Below are positions 7,200 to 58,350 of a stretch of 64,000 nt of DNA, one piece after another; position 1 is the stretch's first letter; each line of letters begins with the position of its first letter. The DNA lies in the NCBI GenBank assembly GCA_951230915.1, contig OX579639.1, positions 930,001 through 994,000 of the forward strand. Direction: 5' to 3'. The DNA is from Antitrichia curtipendula (lineage: Eukaryota; Streptophyta; Bryopsida; Hypnales; Leucodontaceae). The notes below the pieces were generated by a model. The model ran no database searches and had not been told where the DNA came from. It saw only the letters and a list, made by a program, of their open reading frames with translations. Position numbers and translations under genes: made by a program.

Positions 7200-8531
7200 T
7201 AAGGTAGTCTGCTCTAAAAGCACCCGTCTTCTTCAAACCGCTCCTATAATAAGCTCTGGAATGGACATGAGGTGATCCTTTAACCCCTAAAGGCCCGTTT
7301 GTCCTCTCGGGGGACAATTTGGGTCCGGGTAGGATCCTATGACCTCAATTTGTAGAGAAATATTTTGGGATTTTTTGAGGTTGTATGGTTCTACGAGAGC
7401 TTTGTGGATATATAATTTTTATTTCAATTGGTGTCCAAGAGAAAAAATTATGCCAAAAATAGAGTTTGGCGGGCAGCACAAAAAAATCACAGAAAGTCAA
7501 AATAAATTTCTTAAATATTTTTTTCAAAATCTATGTCTTTTTGTCTACATTTGAAGCTTTGATTCATTCTATTTGGACTAATAATGAAAAAGTTATGGAC
7601 AATCTTAGTTTTTCGGGCAATCTAAGCATCTTCTTGAAAAAATAACTTTTAGGATTCGTTTTTGAATGCAATTTTTACAATTTTCAGAAAAAAATTGTTA
7701 AACAAGGTTGAATTTTTTTGCTAGAACAATCTCACTGTTGGGATTATGGTATTTCAATTTGTCTTAGAGCTATTAATGATTTAGTTATTCCTTCAATCTT
7801 GAACCTACTTCTACTTAACAATTTTTTAATGAGTAAAAATTTATTGTTTTTTTCTTGAATTTTTTTTCCTAGATTCTCAACTGAAGTATTCAACATATAA
7901 ACTTAGAAAATCAAAATCAACAATACAAAAAATTTAAGTTAAATAAGTTCAAAGCCCAAAAATCTAGTCAAGCAAGGTGCAAAAAAACTTGTCTTTCTTC
8001 ACTTTGAATGCAAATATCTTGCAATCTATTTGGTCAAAGTTTCTGAAATTTCTTGCACACATTTTCATATTAGTCTAGTATAAGATCCTACGGTCAGATA
8101 TGCAAAAAAAAACAATTTTTATAGTTTTTTGCTCTTTGCAATAGAAGTGGCAATTTTGAGTGTGTTTTGATGAAGAAAAGGCCTCGGGGCTTTAGGGGTT
8201 AATGGACCTCTTTAGCCATTGAGTGGATCGAGGACAAAGTGTTATTTATTGCAAGAGCCAATCAATCTCCTTGGTTTCCATACATTTATTTACAAATTGC
8301 AGGGGAACAAATTTTGAGAGACCTATGGTCACAAATAGGTGACTGCAACAATAATCTTTAGCAAATTCCTAACTTATTTTACAAATGTCCAAAAAATATG
8401 AAACGACTTGGGTTAGATGCCAATTCCACCATTCTTCCTATAAAAATTTACTAAAAATTATTTTAAGGAGTTTAGCTTCCCAAAATAGGCGATCAACTCT
8501 TAAATGGTCGCTTTAAGAGCAGACTACCTTA
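7200..8531. mobile_element. TA-flanked AGGTAG-family MITE, split by a TTAA element
   Basis: The left end TAAGGTAGTCTGCTCTAAAA and the right end TTTAAGAGCAGACTACCTTA are inverted repeats bounded by TA. The interior on both sides of the inserted element at 7280-8202 matches the copy at 34,591-35,001. Without the insertion it would be roughly 410 bp. The TA target and short inverted ends fit a Tc1/mariner (Stowaway-like) non-autonomous element. Confidence 0.75.
7280..8202. mobile_element. TTAA-bounded 0.9-kb element, copy 3 (nested, type 1)
   Basis: It is bounded by TTAA on both sides: TTAACCCCTAAAGGCCCG at the left, GGGGCTTTAGGGGTTAA at the right. It sits inside the AGGTAG element 7200-8531, so it is younger than that element. 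The interior matches copies 2381, 36,656 (opposite orientation) and 48,331. The small ORFs on both strands here are repeat-internal and not conserved as proteins. Confidence 0.75.
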
Positions 8532-40491: not shown

Positions 40492-41971
40492 CACCTAAGT
40501 TGACCTGTGTGGTGGAGATCAGTCTTGAGTGAAGCCAGTCCACAACCCCAGAGGACAAGAAAAGGTCTATCCATTTCAGGACTGCACTTTGGCTGGGTTG
40601 TGGACTTTGGCAAGTGAGCATCCAAGCATCCGTAGCAACACCAGACGCTGCACTGCAGCACAGCAACAGCTGAAAATACGGTGCATGAAGCTGCAGCAAT
40701 TCGTATACTCAAGTTAAGGTAGAAATCCATCGACGTCCACTGTACAGTAGCAGCGCATTGATGAAGACAAAGTACAGTTCGCAGTACTTGCCTCGGTTCT
40801 CGCTCAATCTGCCCTTTTCAGTTTTTCACCACCCCACTCTACTGCCGGTCGTCACAGCCTAAGATCGACTTTTGTCCCTACCTTCCAAAAGTGCAGAAGG
40901 TGAAAGAGATAGAGAGAATGAAAAGAAAAATTCAGGGTATTGGTAAAAGAAGGACGGCTGGCCCAATAACTGGGCCGCAGGGGAGTGTGATGATGGCAAG
41001 ATTCCACCCTGTGGGCTTAAAAGGCGTTGCCTGAGCTGCACTTGGGTAGTGTAGCACTGCAGTCTCTCTGAGAGCTAACTTGCAATTGATCAAGTAGGTG
41101 AACTCGTCTCCCACTTGATGCATGCCTGTGGGTGTTGCAGTAAGGCCCCATCTGTTGATTGCCTCGTTCATTTCAGATTGCATGTTCGACTGCATTGCCT
41201 CTTCTCTGAGCAGAGGGCCACCCTGCTGATTCCTTCCCGGTGAAATGTTGTAAGTTGGCGGATAGCTTCTGTCTCTGCCTTGAATGCCCACAGGTAATCG
41301 AATTCGTTGGAGGAGGCTTCTCGCTTTGTAAGCATCTTTGTCCTCAACCTCTTGGTCCCAGTCAGCCGGCCTGCTTGCGTTGTGGCATGGGTGGGCGGTG
41401 AGCAGTCCATTCGAAGGTAGGAAGTGAGCTCCACCCTCCATCCTTCTTGTTGCAGTCGTTTCCAGTTGCTATGGTAGTGAGTGGCTGTCCGTATGCGTGA
41501 TCATGTGGCCGCTTGCACGTAATGATCTCTGCTTCTTCATCAGAAGTGTGCAGTGGTGCATTGCCATACCCTGCATTTACTGATTCTATGAATGCCCACG
41601 CGTCGTGTAAGTCCCTTAGATTATACATTGATCAAAAGACTTCTTGTGTGAGTGTAATTTAGTACTGCTCTTACTAGATTGCCTGCTTGCTGACATTACC
41701 ACCTGTCTCATGGGGTCCAATTAATCTCTGCTCGAGTGATTTGCTATTTATGCCAGTGCACGTTCCTATTTTATCAATTCTTGTCTCCAATGCCAATGAT
41801 CTGGGTGAAAATTCCCCCTGGAGTTGAGCACATGATCGATCTTTCGTTCTGTAGTAAGAGTATGTCTGACCTCCTCTTGCCTGTGTAGTTTCTTTGTGAA
41901 GACTGAAGACGACATCTCTGTTGCAGCTCGGCTTCTGCATTGCACCTAGAGAAGGGAGGGAACCTAGCATC
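40492..41971 (+). promoter_or_regulatory. Putative promoter and 5' leader of the SOSEKI gene
   Basis: This block is about half GC, unlike the repeats upstream, and lies directly before the SOSEKI start codon. A pyrimidine-rich CATCTCTGTTGCAG at 41,912-41,925 looks like an acceptor, so the leader may contain an intron. Several long minus-strand frames (41 kb region) overlap each other in different frames and have no known domain; I treat them as fortuitous in GC-richer DNA. I do not see a certain TATA box. Confidence 0.4.
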
Positions 41972-44900
41972 ATGGCTTTTGCGGAGGAGCTTTCGAATGT
42001 CCAAGTTCTGTATCAGCTCAGTTGGGAGGGTAAACTGGAGCATCCCCACATGATTACAGTTCAGTATCCGTCGAATCAAGACGGCCTGCGTTTGAGAGGT
42101 AAATTCCCATCTTCAATGTTGGTGTATATCCTGCTCAAATTCAGGAACAGGAACAAATTATGCAAATGTGGTGAAATTCTAAGAATACTCTTGTTCTTCC
42201 TCGCAGATGTGAAGAGGCGGCTCACAACTCTGAGGGGGCAAGGCATCGGTCATTCTTTTTCCTGGTCCTACAAGAGGTTCGTCTTTGGTTCTCCCATTGG
42301 CATCGAGAATTTGAGGCTCTGCATTCGAAATTCCTGTGTCTCTGAGAGCACAATGTCCCTGATATCAAAGCACGGTGACTTGGAGAGTTGCTGGGATCCC
42401 AACGCACTAGCAAGATGATGACCAACGTTGATGTCGCTTGTTTCTTTTGTGCGCAGAAATTACAGGAGCACATTTATCTGGAACGATTTGAGTGACGACG
42501 ATGTGATATATCCTCTGCGCGGCTCAGGAGAGTACCTCTTGAAAGCCTCCGGGCTCATTGACACCTTCGCAAGTAAGAATTCGAAATTTCGGTACCGTGA
42601 ATGCAACCTTCTTCGTTTGGTACGGGCTAGACGGATTTGAGCTTTGACCGAGAACTTTGATTCTCAACCTTCATACTGACAGTCAATGTATTCACTTCCT
42701 GCAGACAAGCCAGAGTCTGAGAGCAAATTCCAGAACGAGCGAAAGCAGAATTCTGCTGACAGACATCCTCGGACAATGCCAGTCGGCTATCTTTCTGTCG
42801 AGGATTTGAAGAGGGACGATAGCGCGAAACAAGGCGTTGTTGCGATTGACACTCCGCAGAGCCTACCGCCTCTGTCGGTGGAGCAAGAAACAATCGACGT
42901 GGAAAAGTCGGACTTCTGCTTATCGTCTTCTGACAACGAAATCTCGCCTCGCCCTTTGAAGATGGCCGACAACAGCAAACCTGCAAACAATCACGGCCTG
43001 GTTTCTCTGAGAAAGTCGCCAACTGTACAAGGCCTTCAGACTCCTCCCCCGTGCAATTATCCGACGGAAGCGCCATTCTCCCCTGGTAGCGCGAAACGAC
43101 TGTGGAAGAGAGAAATCAGGAAAAGCCTCTTCCGGACTCGCAACACGAATGCGAGTTCTCCCTCTAAGATACACGAGAATGTATGCGAGAATCCTACAGT
43201 GCAAGGAGAGGCTCTGGTCGTTGAAAGATCCCATGAGGATGCATCGCTGTGGAAAGATAGCCGGTCAAAAAGTGTCAACACATTGGACCTCAAAGAGAAG
43301 GAGGTCGAGCAGTCCACCTCGCAGCTCATTCGATTGCTCTGGGCTCGCTGGACTGGCGGAAGCAGCAGGGGTAAGCGATTCCCTAACAACACGAGTGACG
43401 CATCCCCTTGCAAAGCTGCAATGACGCCAGACAGCACACCGAGATTGTTGTCTCGCTCCAAGTCCCCGTGCGTAGAGGAAGAGCGATTCCCGACTCCAGA
43501 AGAAATCTCCGAGCAGCTTTCTCTTCGTCCAGCTACACCGAGGGCTCCGAGCAATCCTCTTCCAAGACCGTCAGTGGTGGAGAAAGAAATTGTTGCAGTA
43601 GAGACACCAACACAAGAGTCCCGTCAACCAGAGGAATTGAGATTGAATCGGCCAGCACTAATTGTGTCGGAGCTTCAAGTTGTGCTTGACACCGATACGC
43701 AAGAAGGCGGACCTCCTGAAGCCGAAATCGAGACACCAAAACCCGCCATAGCGAGGTAATAAAATCCTGTTCCGCATTCTCTTCCACCTCATCTCCAAAC
43801 TAATCTTTCTTAATTTCAGTTGAATGTACATCCGTGCATTGTTTCTTCCTCCTCTAATTTTGTGCTGAGAAGCATCAATTCGAAACTAATCTTCCTGCTT
43901 ACTTTCTGTTTTTCTTCCGCTCACGGAGATTGTGTTTCTTCTCATTTTGTGCAGAGTTAATTTCAAGAGCATCAATACTGGCAACGCTCTTCCGAAGGTG
44001 CGGACAACGGTCACATCACCGAGGCCTCTTCCGCCAGGTTTTCACAAAGGCACCAACGATACAAAACCAGTTCAAACACCGAGAAGAAGTTCCAGGAATA
44101 ACTCCATTCCGCTGGCTTCTCCTCCACTGAGGCGGTCCTTAAGTAGGGACGCAGCCCGGAGCATCGGCGCCATCGGTGTCATCACTTGTTCACCGGATCA
44201 AGATTCTGTCTCCTCCACTCCTTCCCCGAAGAAAGTAATCAAGAAGTGCATCAATTTCCATGAAAGAGACGAAAGGTACTCAAAAACAAAACCATATTTC
44301 TACATGCGCTTTAGTTTCCCAATATACTCCGATTCTCCATTGCCTTTCTAATTGCCTTCCTCTGTTTTTTTAATCGATTGTGTTTTCCAGACTCTGTTCT
44401 TAAGCTGCTAATACGCATAAAAGATTGAAAAACTTTAAAAGATCGTGAAATTGCTCCTGAAGTAGAATTCAGAGCACAGAATACAGTAAATTGGTTTCAT
44501 TCCGTCTTCCCGGCAACTCCCAAATTGCGCTCTATAAAATTGTGTTTCTCACTCGCTCGCTCTCCAATTGACTGCAGACCTCTTACACCTGGATTGACGA
44601 CGGTAGATTGGGAAAAAGCTTTACAAGCGGCGGTCGCCGACTGCTTACCACCGCCGAACTTCGGGCAAATCCTCCAAGAGTGCTCGTAAGAATCCTACTC
44701 TCATTACCAGTAATTCTTCCACTTGCTCCATCTGCCTTACTCCATACGAATTCAACAGCGCTTCAGTTTTCCACTAAATTCCTATGGTTTCTCGAAAACA
44801 GAAAATTTCCTCATATGTACAAATTTTCACTTGCGTTTCGATTGCCTTTTATTCAGTACTTTTTCTAAAGACTACTCTTGTTTGTAAGTACACATACAAA

Positions 44901-48330: not shown

Positions 48331-49245
48331 TCAACCCCTATAGGACCAAGACCCTTTTTTTGCCAAAAAACACTCAAAATTTCCATTTCTACAACAAAGA
48401 ATTAAAAAAATTGAAATACACCTTACTAACTGTATGATCTTACACCTTACTGATATGGAAATGTGTGGAAAAAATTTCAGAAATTTTGACCACATAGATT
48501 GCAAGATATCTGCATTTAGAGTGAAAAAAACCAAGTTTTTCAGCACATTGCGGGACTAGATTATTTGACTTTGAAACTTAAATCTTAACTTAAATTTTTA
48601 GTACTACAAAGCTATGAGCTTTAAATCTTTATGGTGGAGAATTGAATTGAGAATCTAAGAGAATTTTTTTCAAAAAATCTTAATTTTTATACTTTAAACA
48701 ATTGTCAAGTAGAAGTAGGTATAAGATAGAAGGAAAATCTAAATTATTAATATCTCTAAAATAGAATTTAAATGCCCTAATCTCAATGGTGAGATTTTTC
48801 TAGCAAGAAAACTAAACCATGTGGAACTTTTTTTTCTTCTTAAATTGTAAAAATTGCATTCAAAAATGAATCCTACAAGTTATTTTTCAAGAAGATGCCC
48901 TAATTGCCCCCAAAACAAGATTGTCTATAACTTTCTCATAACAAATCCAAATGGAATGAATCAAAGCTTTCCATGTAGACAAAAATATAGTCTGCGAGGA
49001 AAATAAAAAAGTAAAAAAATTTGTGAATATTTTTTTTGTTGCCCCCTATCCCACTCTCTCCATTGTTTTGAGCATAACTTTTGTTCCCAGGCTCCAATTG
49101 AAAAAATATTATATTTCTATGAAGCTACTCAATTTTTATATTTTCATAAAAAGTTTCAAAAAATCAAGACAAAAAATGAGATTGTAGATACTTGCCCAAA
49201 ATCCTACTTGTTTGGCGAAGGGACAAATGGTCCTTTAGGAGTTAA
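48331..49245. mobile_element. TTAA-bounded 0.9-kb element (type 1, inverted)
   Basis: The left border is TCAACCCCTATAGGACC (one change from TTAA), the right GGTCCTTTAGGAGTTAA. It is colinear with the inverted copies at 2381 and 7280. Confidence 0.7.
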
Positions 49246-49399
49246 TATAAAGTATTGAGGTTCAATTCTAGAGCCTAATTTCCGATTGATGTGCTCTTTT
49301 GAAATTTTTAATGCTCAATTTAAAAAATATATAACATGCATCTTTTCCTTTATCTTTTTTTTTTTTTAGTTCAAAAATAGAAAAAAGTTTTTTTTACTA

Positions 49400-49960
49400 A
49401 TTTTGAACCATCTAATGCAAGTATCTTTTTGAAAAAATAACTTCTAGGATTCATATTTGAATTCAAATTTCACAATTTTTCAAAAAGAAGGGTCGGCAAG
49501 GTTTAATTTGCTTGTTAGAACAATATTACCATTAAAATTATGGTGTTTCAATTCCATCTTAAACCTATTAACAATTTAGTTTTTCTTTCAATCTTGTACC
49601 TACTTCTACTAAACAATTTTTTTAAGTGAATGAAAAATAAGTTTTCTTTTAAATATTTTTCTTTAGACTTCCAATTCAATTTTTCAACATAAAAATCTTA
49701 AATTCAATATTGGTTGTGCAAAAACTTTAAGCTAAGAAGATTTAAAGTTTTAAAATCTAGTCAAGCAAGGTGCAAAAAATCCATATTTCTTTACTTTGAA
49801 TGCAGATATCTTGTAATCCATGTGGTTCAAGTTTCTGAAATTGCTTCCATATATTTTTATATCAATCTAGTACAAGATGATATGGTTAGGTATGCTAAAA
49901 GCAAACAGTTTCTAAATTTTTTTGCGCTTTGCAAATAGAAATGAAAGTTTTTTTTAATGG
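49400..49960. mobile_element. Partial type 1 TTAA element
   Basis: The interior of the type 1 family ('ttgaaaaaataacttctaggattcat', 'tactttgaatgcagatatcttg', 'cgctttgcaaatagaaatg') is present, but both TTAA termini are missing. Confidence 0.55.
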
Positions 49961-50485
49961 AAAATGGCAGGACGTTGCTTGGGTTCATGTTGTGAGTACA
50001 ACAAAGCAATGTTGATGAGGTGTTGCATTAATTCAGATTTCTCGTCATCTTGCAAGATCAAAGTAGGGTCTGCTAATTCCATCTGTTGGCCTTCTTCATG
50101 GGGTTTCCAAACCTGCCATGGAGTCACATGAATTTGATTGTAGGTATGTTGAAAAGAAACTTGTCAATCCATGCACAAAATATATACAACTTATCTTACT
50201 TCCTACACATTCATTAGAAATCATAGCCCCAGATGTACAATGGCTAGAAGAAACTTGCCAATTTTCTTTGATTGATTATACTCTTACTTCTTACACATTT
50301 TTATTGCTTCAGAAGGCCTTTTCTTTCTACAACAAGTTTGCAAATTTGAATTCTCCAACACATTATTTTAATAAACCTTGCGATGAGAGTTGTGTCTAAG
50401 CAACCTACATGGCCTACATCTATACACTAGAGAAAAAACAAAGTTTGAGGAAAAGCGCAATGTAGTACCCATTTGGAGAGATACA
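49961..50485. other. Intergenic, unrecognised frame
   Basis: A 93-codon plus-strand frame at 50,118-50,399 has no domain I recognise and no splice context. Otherwise nothing is seen. Confidence 0.3.
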
Positions 50486-51378: not shown

Positions 51379-52276
51379 TACACTTCTTCCAATGGCCTTA
51401 TCTTATCTATATTTGGCTGACCACTCAAAACCTCCAGACATAGAACGCCAAAGTTGAAGACATCAACTTTATCACTCAGTTGGCCAAGTAACACATATTT
51501 AGGTGCCAAATACTCCTTGCATTCAACACATATGCTACATTCATTAGAATCAAGAACTCTATTGCATGAATCTACTTTAATTTATTAATCTTACAAATAA
51601 ACGGTCTTTATTTGATGAGTCAAATTCAACAAATCCCTAAGGCATTAAAAAAAAGTTAGGTATGCAACAAATGTGATTACTTTCCAAATTAGCATACAAA
51701 TACATTAGGAAGTAAAAAAGAGATATCTAATGGAGAAAACTTGTACGGTGACCAAACTTCAAAATCCACGTCAGGGCTCAACTAAGAAATTACACCCTCC
51801 CATGTAAGGTACCTAATCCACTTTACAGAATGGAAAAAGGTGCAAACCCCTACTTCACTTGACGTACTTTGGACAGGGTGCTCGGAGACTTCAATGGCGC
51901 AACTAAATAATTCAAAAACTCCGTGAAATTAGTGCACTAGGTTCAGGACAGATCGCAAGCGATGAAGCTCACACACATACTCCGGGGAAGTTCCAAATTT
52001 TTTTTCATGGAATTTCATCGGCCAGATCTTCAACGAGGGAGCTTTGAAGACTAAGAAGGCAGAGCATTTGGACCTGCCCGGTGAACAATCGAGTACTCCC
52101 CGCAGGAAATAATGACGTATATAAGACTGTGCAGGGGATAAAGTGCACGGAGGGCACCGTGGCCAATTGCACATGGACGACGTCTGTTGAATCGTGGATA
52201 GAGCCACCGGACGGCACACTTCTGCAATCCCGTGAACACCGTTCGGTTACAAACTGCCGTTGCCACCCTTGCTACT
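51379..52276. other. Intergenic, with a GC-rich block facing left
   Basis: From about 51,750 the sequence becomes GC-richer. On the minus strand a TATATACG motif (about 52,115) precedes short frames (ATG at about 52,080 and 52,020), as at a promoter and leader. No recognised product is encoded: the overlapping 70-96 codon frames lack domains. It directly adjoins the Mutator-like element. Confidence 0.3.
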
Positions 52277-52285
52277 GACAAGGAC
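52277..52285. repeat. Left target-site duplication GACAAGGAC
   Basis: Nine bases identical to 56,512-56,520, in the same orientation, immediately outside the terminal inverted repeats. Confidence 0.9.
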
Positions 52286-52735
52286 GGGGAGCACTATTTC
52301 TCACCCCTCCATAAATCACTCCACATATTATAAATCTTGAAGATGATAGTGCAGATAATAAATTATGCATAGATACTTTATTAGTATATACATTGTACAT
52401 AAATATTGTACTTGTAAATTGATTGTGCAAAAAGTATAAAAATGTAATTTTATTACATTTTCATTTCCTTTTCTGTAAATCAATTGTACTGCAAATATTA
52501 TAAGACAATGAATATGATGATAATAGAATAATCATGGCATAAATATTAATGCACATACATTTTACAAGAATATAGAGCAAGTGAAAGAGTATTTTTAAAT
52601 GAAATAAGAAATTATTGCAAAGACATTTTTTTTTTCTAAAATCAATTCTAGTGCAAATTGTTGACTACAATGTATATAGAAATAATTGACCAATTTCTTG
52701 ACCAATTAATAGTTCATGAATATGTAACAAGCATT
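52286..52735 (+). repeat. MULE left terminal inverted repeat
   Basis: About 450 bases matching the inverse complement of 56,058-56,511 with few differences, starting GGGGAGCACTATTTCTCAC. The inner limit is near 'gtaacaagcatt'. Confidence 0.9.
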
Positions 52736-52849
52736 TCCTATATATAAGTTTATAGAAAGAAATCCATGTAATTCATGAAGGAAATTGCTTTTTCAAAAAC
52801 AGAGGAATCAATGATGTGAGTCTAAAGTACAAACATAATATAAAAAACA

Positions 52850-53081
52850 AGCACAAATTACAAAGACAGGATCTAGGGGCACAAATAGGGACCTACAACT
52901 CATTTTATTTGAAAATCATAAGTAATTCAAAAATGCTTGGAACAATACAAAACCACTTTTGTTAGATTCCTCATCTATTTCTCTTTGTCTGAAAAATGAG
53001 CTAAAAAATTTTCATCCAAGAAAATACGTGCAAAAAGGCGGATCAGCCCTTAGATAGTCGATTTATGAGCCTTGTACCTTA
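52850..53081. mobile_element. Partial AGGTAG-family MITE inside the MULE
   Basis: It ends GCCTTGTACCTTA at the right. The interior ('gatcagcccttagatagtcg', 'cacaaatagggacctac') is the inverted version of 34,600-34,800. The left end is degraded. It lies downstream of the dioxygenase stop codon. Confidence 0.5.
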
Positions 53082-53165
53082 TCATTCATGTATGTTTTAC
53101 CTATCCTGGTCTACTCTATGTTATATCATTAGTGCCAATACATGGTGAGTTGGTGACCTGTCAAG

Positions 53166-54594
53166 CTACTGCTTCTTTTCCTTTACTTTCAAACTCCCAA
53201 GAATTTCATCATACAAATGTTTGCTAGATTTGTTTTTTGCTCTCCGAAGCTCATCAATTTCTTTGATAATTCTTTCAAATGAATCTAAAGTAGACTTTTT
53301 GTTTAGAAGAGCAACTCCCATTTGGAAGAACCCAATATTTGTTGTTGTTCCATGCCTTACATGTGTTGAATCCAATAGTAATACTGATCCGGTTCTGGGT
53401 TTAATATAATACCCATGGTTTGGTAGATAGAACTCCCAACCTTTTCTTGATATTCCATAGAAAAATTCTGCAAACACATTGTTGATAAAACTTAGTTATT
53501 TTATTCCAAGAAAATAATAGATGCTACAGTAAAATACCCCCTTCCACCAAATGTAAAGTCTTTTTTTCAATCATATGAATTCACTTTTAAACAAAAACAA
53601 AAATTCAAATAAGAATTCAAATATGACCTTTGGTAAACCACATGATGAAACCCATATGGGTGTCATCTTCATCTTCATGCGGTGATACCCAGTAGTTTTT
53701 CGTAAGGTCTAATTGGGTAAAAGGTATATCCCCAATTTGACAATATTGTCTAGGAATTGTAGTGGGGTACAGGTTTTCAAGCAACGTTGTCCAAGATTGA
53801 AACGCCGGTTGTAGAAGCTTATACACATCTTTCGCAAAGAATTCCCCAAGCTTATGGATCTCTTCTGCTGATGGTTTGATATTGTGATTTGTTCTTTTTG
53901 CTTGAGCATACCTATAAGCATTGATGTGCAGTCAATATAAATATTAGATGGCATGAGCTTATACATATGCTTTGCCTATAAAGAAAATGCATTAGCAAGT
54001 ACATGTCAAACTAATCATGAAGTACATGGAATGTACTCACAACATTCAACATGTTAGATGGAAGTTAATGTACTTATAAAATAGGATATTTGACATGAAA
54101 AATCAAGGTGATCATACTATTGAATTGTCATTCAACAATGAATTGCTTTCTCATTTAGATGTATAAAAAATGAATGAGAACATGGAATGTTCTTACGTAA
54201 CAATATTGTTAGTAAAAGAATCCATCCTCCAACCACACATCACCATGTCGCCACCAACTTTTTCACGTCTTCGATCCACTATACCTCCATGCTCATAAAT
54301 GAATTCTACAAGATTGTAGTATTGCTGGCACTTGTGACTTGGGAAATTTTTTTGAACATAGATGCCAAGTACTTTTTCACCTTCCATAAAAACACATAAA
54401 TCTGAAATTTCAATCACTTTTGAAGTGTCCATTTTACATGTTTTATTTTTTATTTTCCGACACTTGATGACTTGGTTGACAACTTTAGGGATTGACAAAC
54501 CTAGGGCTCGTAACTTTTTGACATCTTCATGAATGGTAGGAGTGTTCATAGAAATGATTGAATCATGTTCTTCAACTTTTTCTTTTATAGACAT
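53166..54594 (-). CDS. TET/JBP-like 2-oxoglutarate/Fe(II) dioxygenase on the MULE
   Basis: Three exons on the minus strand join in frame with GT-AG introns: 54594-54197, 53911-53628 and 53467-53166, giving 327 residues from the first available ATG. The double-stranded beta-helix signature is clear: HxD as SPHEDEDD (H211, D213), then MGFIMWF, then GWEFYLPNHGYYIKPRTGSV and the distal histidine in VRHGTT (H266). The Arg expected about ten residues after that His to bind 2-oxoglutarate is not there (GFFQMGVALL), so catalysis is uncertain. A Lys-rich helical tail ends the protein. The likely family, by motif layout, is Tet-like oxygenases, some of which oxidise 5-methylcytosine. Upstream, the frame would continue into a U1-type zinc finger, but its first Cys codon is a TGA. 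A host prolyl-hydroxylase-like enzyme is a less likely alternative. Confidence 0.72.
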
Positions 54595-54690
54595 CTTATG
54601 ATTTTTTGCATGTTTTTTACCCCTCAAATGAGCTTCACATTGGTCTTCAGAGTTGAAGGTTTCACTACAAAGAGATCATGTGTGTGTCAC
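54595..54690 (-). pseudogene. U1-type C2H2 zinc finger with its first Cys codon replaced by TGA
   Basis: In frame with the dioxygenase exon 1, the minus strand reads stop-SLCSETFNSEDQCEAHLRGKKH. With a Cys in place of the stop this would be C-x2-C-x12-H-x5-H, the U1/matrin-type spacing. The TGA is at 54,676-54,678. Alternatively TTTGTAG just inside could be an acceptor, and the first Cys pair would then come from an upstream exon I cannot find. Confidence 0.55.
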
Positions 54691-54878
54691 TGGATGCATT
54701 GCATTTGTTGAAGAAAACTATACTCTAAAAGAAAATGAATTCTTAAGATATAGTAATTGATCAAGAAGTAAGAAGGTGTATTGCAAGTGTAAAAAACAAC
54801 TACATACTATCTAGCTCCATGCTACAACAATGTGCTTCAAGTACCTCCATTAGTTACCAACACACTATTCTTCACAAT

Positions 54879-55000
54879 ACAAGCTAATGGTACACTATGA
54901 GCATATTGATGTTGTAACATGCTTCATCAGAATGGAGGTACAAGCTAATGGTACACCATGAGCATACTGATGTTGTGACATGCTTCATTAGAATGGAGGT
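54879..55000. repeat. 61-bp tandem duplication inside the MULE
   Basis: Two units starting ACAAGCTAATGGTACAC at 54,879 and 54,940, differing at a few positions, upstream of the dioxygenase gene where its promoter would be. Confidence 0.85.
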
Positions 55001-55589
55001 ACAACACTCAGAGCATGAGGATGAAAATAAATTGCCCTCTCCTAAGCAGGCCTTATGGACAAAAAACCATCACCGCAAACATAACTTTCCTTCTCTCAAT
55101 TAGGCTCCATGAACAAAAATTACTTTCACAGAGACAAACACATAGTACAATTAATTTGGGAATCTACTAAGTTCATTGTCATCCAAGCATAGAATATTGA
55201 ATTCATTGTATGAAGTGTAGGTCTTTCATGCACAGAGGTACTTTAAATATTGGTTGCATGTTGTTTAATCTACCGTAGAATATGTAGGGACGTAGACTCT
55301 TCATTTCAGTAAATTTTAGTCTTCTCATTTACATGTACCAGTGTCCATTGATAGTCCACCTACCTAAGGTTTCATTAATCTTGGATCAATGAGGAAGATG
55401 GAAAACCACAAGACAGAGGTAAATACAAATGAAATGACACTAGATTTTATAAATGCATAATTTTCTTATTAAGCCACTATATATTGAATGGTATGTAAAA
55501 AGGCTTGGTGGTAATATATAAGGTTTGTCAATGTGTAGAGCACTTACATTGGTGTGGTGAACAAGAAATGAGTACAAACATATTTAATG

Positions 55590-56035
55590 AATGTACACCC
55601 AAAGTCGCCACTTCTTGCTATTTAGCCTAGTTACTATTATTAGATTGGTTAAATTTTCATATGTTCTTGTTGCCAAGTGAAAGGAAGTTCCAACGCACCT
55701 AAAAACAAGGCATTTGGATATTGTATGCAAAAGATATGAAGGAACAAATTTTGGTTCTAAAATGGTTCCTTACACATAGGTACAAAATTGATTTTGGAGT
55801 TGTACATTGAGTATAGATGGTGATTTAGGGTCAAATTTTCATATGTTCTTGTTGCCAAGTGAAAGGAAGTTCCAACATAGCTGAAAAGAAGGCATTTGGA
55901 TATTGTATGCAAAAGTTATGAAGGAACAAAGTTTGGTTTTAAAATTTGGTTTGGTTTACATAGATACAGAATTGATTTTGAGTATAGATGGTGATTTAGG
56001 GTCAACTAGCACATTGGTAAAATACCTAGCTTATG
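55590..56035. mobile_element. AGGTAG-family MITE (GTACACCC subtype) inside the MULE, partly duplicated
   Basis: Starts TGTACACCCAAAGTCGCCAC and ends AAAATACCTAGCTTA. It matches 35,047-35,322 inverted, but a segment of about 165 bases ('aaattttcatatgttcttgttgcc' onward) is present twice. Confidence 0.65.
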
Positions 56036-56057
56036 TTTGTCTTTCTTTGATGTAGTG

Positions 56058-56511
56058 AATGCTTGTTACATGTTCATGAACTACAAATTGGTCTGGTCAA
56101 GAAATTAGTCAATTATTTCTATATACATTGTAGTCAACAATTTGCACTAGAATTGATTTTAGAAAAAAGAATGTCTTTGCAATAATTTCTTATTTCATTT
56201 AAAAATACTCTTTCACTTGCTCTATATTCTTGTAAAATGTATGTGCATTAATATTTATGCCATGATTATTCTATTATCATCATATTCATTGTCTTATAAT
56301 ATTTGCAGTACAATTGATTTACAGAAAAGGAAATGAAAATGTAATAAAATTACATTTTTATACTTTTTGCACAATCAATTTACAAGCACAATATTTATGT
56401 ACAATGTATATACTAATAAAGTATCTATGCATAATTTATTATCCGCACTATCATCTTCAAGATTTATAATATGTGGAGTGATTTATGGAGGGATGAGAAA
56501 TAGTGTTTTTC
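56058..56511 (-). repeat. MULE right terminal inverted repeat
   Basis: The inverted counterpart of 52,286-52,735. Its outer end on the plus strand is GAGAAATAGTGTTTTTC, directly followed by the duplication. Confidence 0.9.
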
Positions 56512-56520
56512 GACAAGGAC
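56512..56520. repeat. Right target-site duplication GACAAGGAC
   Basis: Identical to 52,277-52,285. Confidence 0.9.
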
Positions 56521-57785
56521 TTGTACACAGAGAATACACTTGAGACAGAATGGGAGAGGCAAGTATTGTATTACATAAGTGTGATTAATGCCATAGTCTA
56601 TTTTGAAAGTTTAGGTAAACCATTCTAAGTTGTATTGTTCTTTATGATACATCAAATTTTCAATTTCCAATTGGAATGTTTTTATTGTCTTTTGTTTATT
56701 TAAATTTGAAAGAAATGGAGTGAATTGCCAAAGTGAGTACTTCAACCATTAGCTTCATGAAAAGCGAATACCCCATAGGCCATAGGGAATTGAAAATTGA
56801 TATATGAGGATAGAATGCTAATTACAATTGATACATGAAGCCTAAATTGTAATAAAACGGTAATGAAATTGATGCATGCTAATCCTTAATTACCAAAAAT
56901 ATTTCAAATTTCAAATGTTGTGAAGATGTACTATTTAATGCAACTTAGGGTAATAATTTAATGTTGTTTATTTATAAAAAATTATAAAATGTGATTGATA
57001 TTATATCATTTCCATAAGATTAGAAATATTACTATTATAAACAATAATTTTCAATAAACTTTCAGATCGAATATTAAATTTTTTCATATAGTTTTATTTT
57101 AATTTTGAATGTGTATAATTTTCAAAATCTAGAGTTTTAATTATGGAGATTAATCAAGATTTTTCTATTTTTTTTTTATCTATTCAAGTCATTTGTGATG
57201 ACTGATTTTTGAATTATAAAAATTGCTCTCTAAAGCCGGTCAAATATACTAGTATATAGAGTATTAATAATGAATTTTTTTTGAGAATTTATATTGTACA
57301 AATGTGAAAGAACTAATACAAGAATATACCAATAATTAGATGGATGACAATACCAAGATAATGTATGTTTGGAACATCAATGGACGTTCATTTGTTGTTT
57401 GAAATTTGAACATTTGATCCTTTAGGATGTAAGAAAGTCAATATCTAGTACTAGATGGATCATGGTAATTACAATTTATAATAAAAATCATCAATAGAAT
57501 TGAAAAGTCCAAACTTTTCCAATGTTTGATGCGCATTGATCACCTAAATCCTTGAATGCCTTTTCTACTGCCGATGATATCTTTGCATGGTGGTATGGGA
57601 CAATATTTCCTTCTACACCTTCTCCCGCATTCATTGAATAATCGTAACTTCTATTCTTGTAATTTCCACGCAAGGATGTAGTTTTATATTTAATTTTGGC
57701 TATATGGTGGGATTGTTTCATAATACTAACTCTTTTACTTTTATTTTAATGCAAGAGAACATATTAAAAAAATAAATTATTCATT
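56521..57785. other. Intergenic, no gene recognised
   Basis: AT-rich. A 76-codon minus frame (57,491-57,721) is slightly less biased than its surroundings but has no domain, Met context or splice signal I can defend. Confidence 0.35.
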
Positions 57786-58343
57786 TTAATCCCTAAAATC
57801 TCAAGGTTTTTTCCATCAAAATACATTTGAAACTGCCATTTCTATAGCAAAAAATTTAAAAATTTAAAAAGATATTTTTTTGCATATTCGATTGCAGGAT
57901 CTTGTTCCAAAATAGTAGAAAAATATGTGGAAGAAATTTCAAAAAATTTGACTGTGTAGATTAGAAGATATTTGCATTTAAAGCAAAGAAAACAAATTCT
58001 TTTGCTTGTTGTTCAACTACATTTTGTGGCTTTGAACCTTCTTAACTTAAATTGTTTGCTCTATGGATTTTACATTTTAAACTTTTTATGATGAACAATT
58101 GAGGTGAGAATCTAGAGAAAATAAATCTAAAAGAAAACGCTTAGTTTTCACTCATTAAAAAATTGTTAAGTAGAAGTAAGTTTAAGATTGAAGGAAAAAC
58201 TAAATTGATTATAGCTCTAAGATGGAAGTGCACTAATGTGAGATTGTTCTACCAAGAAATCTTAACCTTTAGGAACCTTTTTTTTCTCAATATGAAAAGT
58301 GAGTTCTTAAATGAATCCTACAAGTTATTTTTTCAAGAAGATG
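57786..58343. mobile_element. Right-truncated TTAA element (type 1 inverted)
   Basis: Starts TTAATCCCTAAAATCTC and follows 48,331-48,900. It stops within 'ttcaagaagatgctctat', where the hairpin array begins. Confidence 0.65.
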
Positions 58344-58350
58344 CTCTATG

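Follow-up and report, generated by a model that had tools for sequence, protein, structure and literature searches.

A zinc-finger TET-like oxygenase gene in MULE-like and piggyBac-type elements of the moss Antitrichia curtipendula

Transposon-borne genes of the TET/JBP type are known from fungi, where DNA transposons of 11 lineages are described as carrying them, in the types PU, AG and PE (Kojima 2025, PMC12730594). In plants, the VANC proteins of VANDAL elements are described as binding short DNA motifs, which occur there as non-coding tandem repeats whose number varies (PMC5735166); a TET homologue of Chlamydomonas, CMD1, modifies 5-methylcytosine (5mC) (PMC7854593), and the occurrence of TET-like enzymes or oxidised 5mC in plants is disputed (PMC6949463). 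Here we describe a transposable element of the moss Antitrichia curtipendula (NCBI GenBank assembly GCA_951230915.1, contig OX579639.1), contained in a stretch of 64,000 nucleotides (the window; C7:930001-994000), whose sole sizeable gene encodes a predicted TET-like oxygenase, together with relatives of that gene found by searching the genome (400 Mb, 303 contigs). We lean towards regarding the element as a decaying member of a long-lived transposon-borne module that encodes a predicted zinc-finger-guided TET-like anti-silencing enzyme.

As in the fungal systems, TET/JBP-like cargo would here occupy several DNA transposon lineages, with transfer between them and a proposed counter-silencing role; the host, however, is a plant, and the carriers are Mutator-like elements (MULE-like) and piggyBac elements, neither of which is among the 11 lineages described for fungi (PMC12730594). 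In the main text of that study as available to us, 'piggyBac' and 'Mutator' do not occur and MuDR is named twice, in the introduction and about other cargo; 'zinc' and 'C2H2' have no occurrence in the available text, and the C2H2 finger fused to the moss oxygenases sets them apart, by description, from PU, AG and PE. With the VANDAL/VANC system as described, the moss elements have in common a candidate anti-silencing gene in a plant transposon and non-coding tandem repeats that vary in number between copies, but VANC binds a short DNA motif, whereas the moss product is a predicted oxygenase. Among the papers listed by our literature searches there was no earlier report of TET-like genes in plant transposons, MULE-like or piggyBac elements, and 'dioxygenase' and 'TET' are absent as whole words from a review of gene capture in plants; TET-like cargo in plant MULE-like and piggyBac elements is apparently unreported, although priority is not certain, and transposon-borne TET/JBP genes as such are already known in fungi. 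A study of TET/JBP genes in fungi by Iyer and others (2014) may mention plants or algae.

The gene and its product

The gene lies on the minus strand, in three exons separated by GT-AG introns (Table 1), and its HxD motif and distal His could be located, bearing out an initial annotation that had described a spliceable three-exon 2-oxoglutarate (2OG)-Fe(II) oxygenase as the only substantial gene of the element. The 327-residue product given there matches a reading from the ATG at 54594; missed were an in-frame upstream ATG at 54699, from which the frame passes through a C2H2 finger ahead of that product, and a TGA at codon 8 (54678-54676). This TGA replaces the codon of the finger's first Cys, which is present in relatives, and because of it the product of the window copy could begin only at 54594, the next ATG. 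The finger, of JAZ/zf-met type, is complete in three relatives, the loci L009, L010 and L051.

Table 1. Coordinates in the window of the element, its gene, repeats and flanks
Feature	Position	Strand	Details
Element with terminal inverted repeats (TIRs), X family, copy A	52286..56511		matching inverted arms and 9-bp target-site duplication (TSD)
Left 9-bp TSD, GACAAGGAC	52277..52285	+	sequence comparison of both ends
Right 9-bp TSD, GACAAGGAC	56512..56520	+	sequence comparison of both ends
Left TIR	52286..52743	+	core (positions 54-288) resembles 179-bp array upstream of L009 gene
Right TIR	56050..56511	-	arm alignment
Exon 1	54197..54699	-	C2H2 (JAZ/zf-met) finger and N-terminal part
Exon 2	53628..53911	-	HxD iron ligands 53679-53671; Asp of HxDxxD 53664-53662
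Exon 3	53166..53467	-	distal His 53354-53352, C terminus, stop
61-bp tandem repeat, 2.1 copies	54878..55004	+	upstream of exon 1
182-bp tandem repeat, two units	55647..55980	-	upstream of gene
Left flank common to copy A and copy B (C10)	51739..52285	+	4 genome matches
Right flank common to copy A, copy B and five D copies	56512..56580	+	genome matches

Assignment to the Tet-like family, also made in the initial annotation, held up against the Pfam profiles. The cut-off of 2OG-FeII_Oxy_6 ('Tet-like', PF20515; 27) was passed by the window copy (27.7 bits), L051 (38.4), L010 (35.8) and L009 (32.9), and that of Tet_JBP (PF12851; 34.9) by L009 only (37.6 bits), being missed by the window copy (26.8), L051 (27.1) and L010 (30.5); the L009 product also scored 34.2 bits with zf-C2H2_jaz (cut-off 22.6). 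When a profile of four members was compared with the PDB, 10 sequences matched up to E 1, nine of them zinc-finger proteins and the sole oxygenase being CMD1 (weak overall, E 0.013), whose H345, D347, D350 and H397, including the iron ligands as identified from PMC7854593, align to invariant residues of the profile. The alignment of the gene family holds the HxD...H iron triad, and the Asp three residues after that of HxD, which aligns with D350, is invariant across the four members. D350 is presumably a base-contacting residue of CMD1.

A protein search with the window product alone gave no match; a profile-based search returned proteins like that of locus L068 (P0001-P0005 and P0007), as well as P0006, a relative in exon 1, and P0008, a weak fragment. 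L068 itself (C1:47513850-47515100) and P0001-P0004 are relatives without introns, and P0001-P0003 have a degenerate N-terminal finger (CxC), with P0001 standing for a cluster of 10 sequences.

The element and its copies in the genome

The initial annotation had bounded the element at base level by inverted ends of about 450 bp and a 9-bp duplication, and both were confirmed by our alignments: the arms are 99% complementary over 52292-52634/56163-56505, a gapped alignment extends them to about 458 bp at 96% identity, and the outermost 6 bases differ between the two element ends. By a hand estimate, chance alone would place the same exact 9 bp at the two ends with a probability of about 4e-6. 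Beyond the TSD, copy B on C10 has the same flanking DNA as the window copy on both sides and five D copies have it on the right only; because these flanks are shared, the TSD is probably the record of a single insertion that was duplicated afterwards to give the A, B and D copies. Two of the four genome matches to the left flank, at 67-68%, have no listed TIR match alongside. A TIR end with wholly different flanks was found only in two short C1 copies (L023 and L024), at one end, the other end of each being truncated. In copy B (L050) both TSDs read AACAAGGAC in place of GACAAGGAC, an identical change on each side in flanks that otherwise match the window copy, for which we have no explanation.

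In the protein search of the genome (E up to 0.001) 116 of the 252 candidates were scored, so that the counts are lower bounds: the window protein gave at least 128 matches, grouped into 72 loci, 10 of which reach at least 76% identity, while 23 lie at 44-70% and 39 below 44%. The left TIR, used as query with 40 of the 43 candidates scored, gave at least 50 matches. All ten close gene copies adjoin a TIR match (within 886 bp). The gene is thus no one-off: the initial annotation would have been refuted, in favour of a one-off capture, had the gene shown no repeat association or had no other copy with this TIR carried it, and this check did not refute it. The TIR is incomplete in several of these copies: at the one end visible, both E copies (E1 and E2) lack the outermost 86 bp, the D copies are missing much of one end, and in copy F the match consists of two inner pieces of about 36 bp only. 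TIR copies without the gene also exist, for example two 1.75-kb copies on C1 that resemble each other at 97.6% across 3.5 kb of element and flanks.

The link between gene and TIR extends to more distant relatives. At two of the other 62 loci (C6:32.81 Mb and C7:17.57 Mb), TIR-like DNA was found on the 5' side of the gene, 0.7-1 kb away and with its orientation kept, against an expectation of 0.01. The TIR core is also matched by the 179-bp array that precedes the L009 gene, with a score of 60.8 bits, compared with a maximum of 37.4 for 200 shuffles. In a shuffle test of nine loci for likeness to the TIR, L009 and L043 (the C7 locus) exceeded the shuffles. Because TIR-like DNA thus recurs 5' of diverged genes, its association with the gene seems, on these alignments, to predate the divergence of some of the families.

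Several further arrangements came to light among the loci. Five have exon-1 and exon-3 parts close together with no exon-2 match (C1:14357861, C2:4733266, C2:29301855, C2:33782074 and C3:16983680), apparently lacking the HxD motif, and three match exon 1 alone (C1:15391402, C2:23900499 and C3:18340528), both judged by match coordinates. One distant Tet-like oxygenase, about 25% identical, recurs on five small contigs (L002-L006, on C19, C105, C112, C180 and C206), and L008/L011 on C4 hold a Tet-like oxygenase of similar distance.

Outside the element, the window holds copies of another inverted-repeat element at 48333-49964 and 57783-58348, whose relatives end in sequences of the type TTAA-CCCCTAAA; near L010 and the five D copies there are similar ones. 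We considered these repeats as outer ends of a larger gene-holding element and rejected this, the TTAA-CCCC type ends seen in relatives facing the gene so that the repeats look like separate insertions, although the five D copies have common DNA for at least 1.5 kb past both sides and the matter is not settled for them. The boundaries of a segment designated W were likewise rejected as TSD-flanked, no 8-bp TSD being found. Further away, at 41900-42418, a reading frame encodes a DIX-like domain of SOSEKI, a land-plant family.

MULE-like and piggyBac carriers

piggyBac elements are defined by TTAA flanks and short ends starting with CCC. At L009 (C4), a frame of 1156 codons, open from stop to stop and holding a complete piggyBac DDE domain (253 bits), lies 2.1 kb upstream of the open zinc-finger TET-like gene on the same strand, and the two are enclosed by TTAA-flanked ends, CCCCTCAGAGCCCCAG and CCCCTCACAGCCCCAG, 9440 bp apart. 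Over 20 positions these ends agree at 16, whereas the runner-up among up to 405 pairs agreed at 12. The carrier of the L009 gene thus has the TTAA target, the matching short ends starting with CCC and the DDE_Tnp_1_7 transposase of a piggyBac element, differing in its length of 9.44 kb with a second gene from the four other exact-end pairs with a scored transposase, which measure 5.5-5.8 kb. The end pattern TTAA-CCCCTCA[GC]AGCCCCAG, one mismatch allowed, occurs 908 times in the genome and not once as the reversed control. A transposase search gave 906 candidates, 116 of them scored; when the 99 listed exact ends were checked for a scored match within 7 kb, 22 had one inwards and none had one outwards, and because of this one-sidedness the pattern is a true piggyBac end.

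Two of the close copies, E1 and E2, have different outer DNA, and at the one end examined their mutual match starts within one base of a piggyBac end, about 0.6 kb from the truncated X-family TIR. Because the L009 gene sits in a piggyBac element and E1 and E2 just inside piggyBac termini, the gene module is carried by at least two transposon types, the one with long TIRs and 9-bp TSD (MULE-like) and the TTAA-flanked piggyBac.

The window element itself has long TIRs and a TSD within the 8-11 bp range given for MULEs (PMC6446971). It has neither TTAA ends nor other piggyBac features: no TTAA ends were found around it, and three weak matches to the end pattern lie in the window at 8183, 18502 and 40353. 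Its initial annotation as a MULE is borne out by TIR length and TSD size only: no MULE transposase match was found near any copy, since of the 35 PF10551 matches none comes closer than 68 kb to a gene locus or 164 kb to the 41 listed TIR sites (an autonomous partner may be missed), and an open carrier that bears a transposase is of piggyBac type.

piggyBac transposases seem very numerous in this genome for a plant, given the candidates and termini counted above, all of the scored matches being over the cut-off and many free of stops. Two facing piggyBac-type TTAA ends about 1 kb apart at L018 (positions 7242-8223; C7:927242-928223) perhaps mark a short non-autonomous element, and a few kb from the L009 element lies a very long array of near-identical leucine-rich repeats, open on both strands (L014, C4:11558749-11562324).

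Selection, proposed role and significance

All ten close copies carry at least one lesion: copy B has a stop at codon 64 and has lost one finger Cys, the five D copies have in common a one-base deletion late in the frame, and E1, E2 and F have several lesions each. The diverged members L009 and L010 have open frames. Among six close copies (15 pairs) the ratio of nonsynonymous to synonymous substitution rates (dN/dS) is near neutral, at 0.47-1.09, and between families it is 0.159 for the window copy against L010, 0.178 against L009 (synonymous divergence, dS, being 1.7-1.9 in both, near saturation) and 0.20 for L009 against L010. The substitution pattern between families indicates purifying selection, and taken together the results are what is usually seen when a gene long under selection has transposon copies that decay.

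In the mechanism that we propose, the N-terminal C2H2 finger would guide the enzyme to repeats that lie outside the coding regions of the element, namely the TIR core and the tandem units of about 180 bp, the C-terminal TET-like Fe(II) oxygenase would then oxidise 5mC at those repeats, and with the methylation mark lost the element would be freed from silencing; DNA binding, substrate, targeting and the anti-silencing role, which the initial annotation had likewise put forward, are all predictions from sequence. Tandem repeats are found both upstream of the gene and in introns. The 182-bp unit varies in number, with two in the window copy and copy B, three in both C copies and four to six in the D copies; it has no match in L009 or L010, and L009 has arrays of its own, of 179-bp and 171-bp units. 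A bolder form of the proposal is a self-propagating demethylation module in a land plant, a zinc-finger-guided TET-like enzyme that moves between unrelated transposon superfamilies and oxidises 5mC (or adds a CMD1-like ascorbate-derived modification) at its own tandem repeats; we put this forward tentatively, as a possibility on the unlikely side, and if true it would place oxidised cytosine in plant DNA at transposons.

Several results weigh against a transposon-borne anti-silencing enzyme, beginning with the lesions of every close copy and the near-neutral dN/dS among six of them; a selected host gene family could give the same pattern of lesions and dN/dS. L010 was not found inside a piggyBac element of the L009 kind, the 30 kb around it holding a single and weak likeness to the piggyBac end pattern, with five mismatches in 20 positions. 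In the shuffle test seven of the nine loci, including the L010 array, were no better than shuffles, and L043 had entered that test through its own TIR match. A six-frame search of the genome with Tet_JBP, exon by exon, gave eight matches, none over the cut-off, and the L068-type relatives score under the Tet cut-offs. The usual 2OG-binding Arg was not recognised: in the products of the window copy, L009 and L010, the 17 residues that follow the distal His include neither Arg nor Lys. This is also a difference from CMD1 with its cosubstrate-binding Arg; an Arg elsewhere in the product could serve. An AlphaFold2 model of the relative P0001 (five sequences) was of no use, with a mean predicted local distance difference test (pLDDT) score of 36.

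The strongest alternative is that the zinc-finger TET-like genes are ordinary nuclear genes, picked up repeatedly and by chance in MULE-like and piggyBac elements, where they then decay. The decay just described would follow from it, as would the 39 of 72 loci that are distant (some in long stop-free frames), and MULEs are described as tending to acquire host gene fragments (PMC6446971). Chance capture does not readily explain, however, why three genes that are no more than 45-68% alike all have TIR-like sequence on their 5' side, with place and orientation kept, nor an open L009 gene beside an open transposase frame within one element, nor the proximity of gene loci to piggyBac transposases: 4 of the 72 are no further than 10 kb from a scored match (116 in all) where 0.44 were expected, although three of the four are distant matches. 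We consider such capture unlikely, while granting it real weight.

A second alternative accepts the gene as a transposon accessory and denies it a part in DNA methylation: it might be, for example, an oxygenase that modifies RNA or proteins, or might assist transposition, and its JAZ-type finger may bind double-stranded RNA, as Pfam describes for zf-C2H2_jaz. The missing canonical 2OG Arg would suit such an enzyme, but the sole oxygenase match in the PDB is a 5mC enzyme with Asp350 aligned, if weakly matched, and L009 passes the Tet_JBP cut-off; we hold this alternative to be quite improbable. Little probability attaches, too, to the module being a bystander in mobile DNA without present function, its arrays and TIR likeness by-products of repeat expansion, a reading that the decay of the close copies and the flanks common to the A, B and D copies (by which some of the copies go back to a single insertion that was duplicated) would favour, but for which the dN/dS of 0.16-0.20 between families, needing past selection, is an obstacle.

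The transposon-borne TET-like module is the reading that we favour. Should its genes be active, TET-like enzymes would have a source in plant transposons, allowing a direct test of the disputed question of such enzymes in plants; there would be a second, enzymatic anti-silencing route in addition to VANC, and it would be evident that in plants, as in fungi, transposons of different types pass on TET-like cargo.

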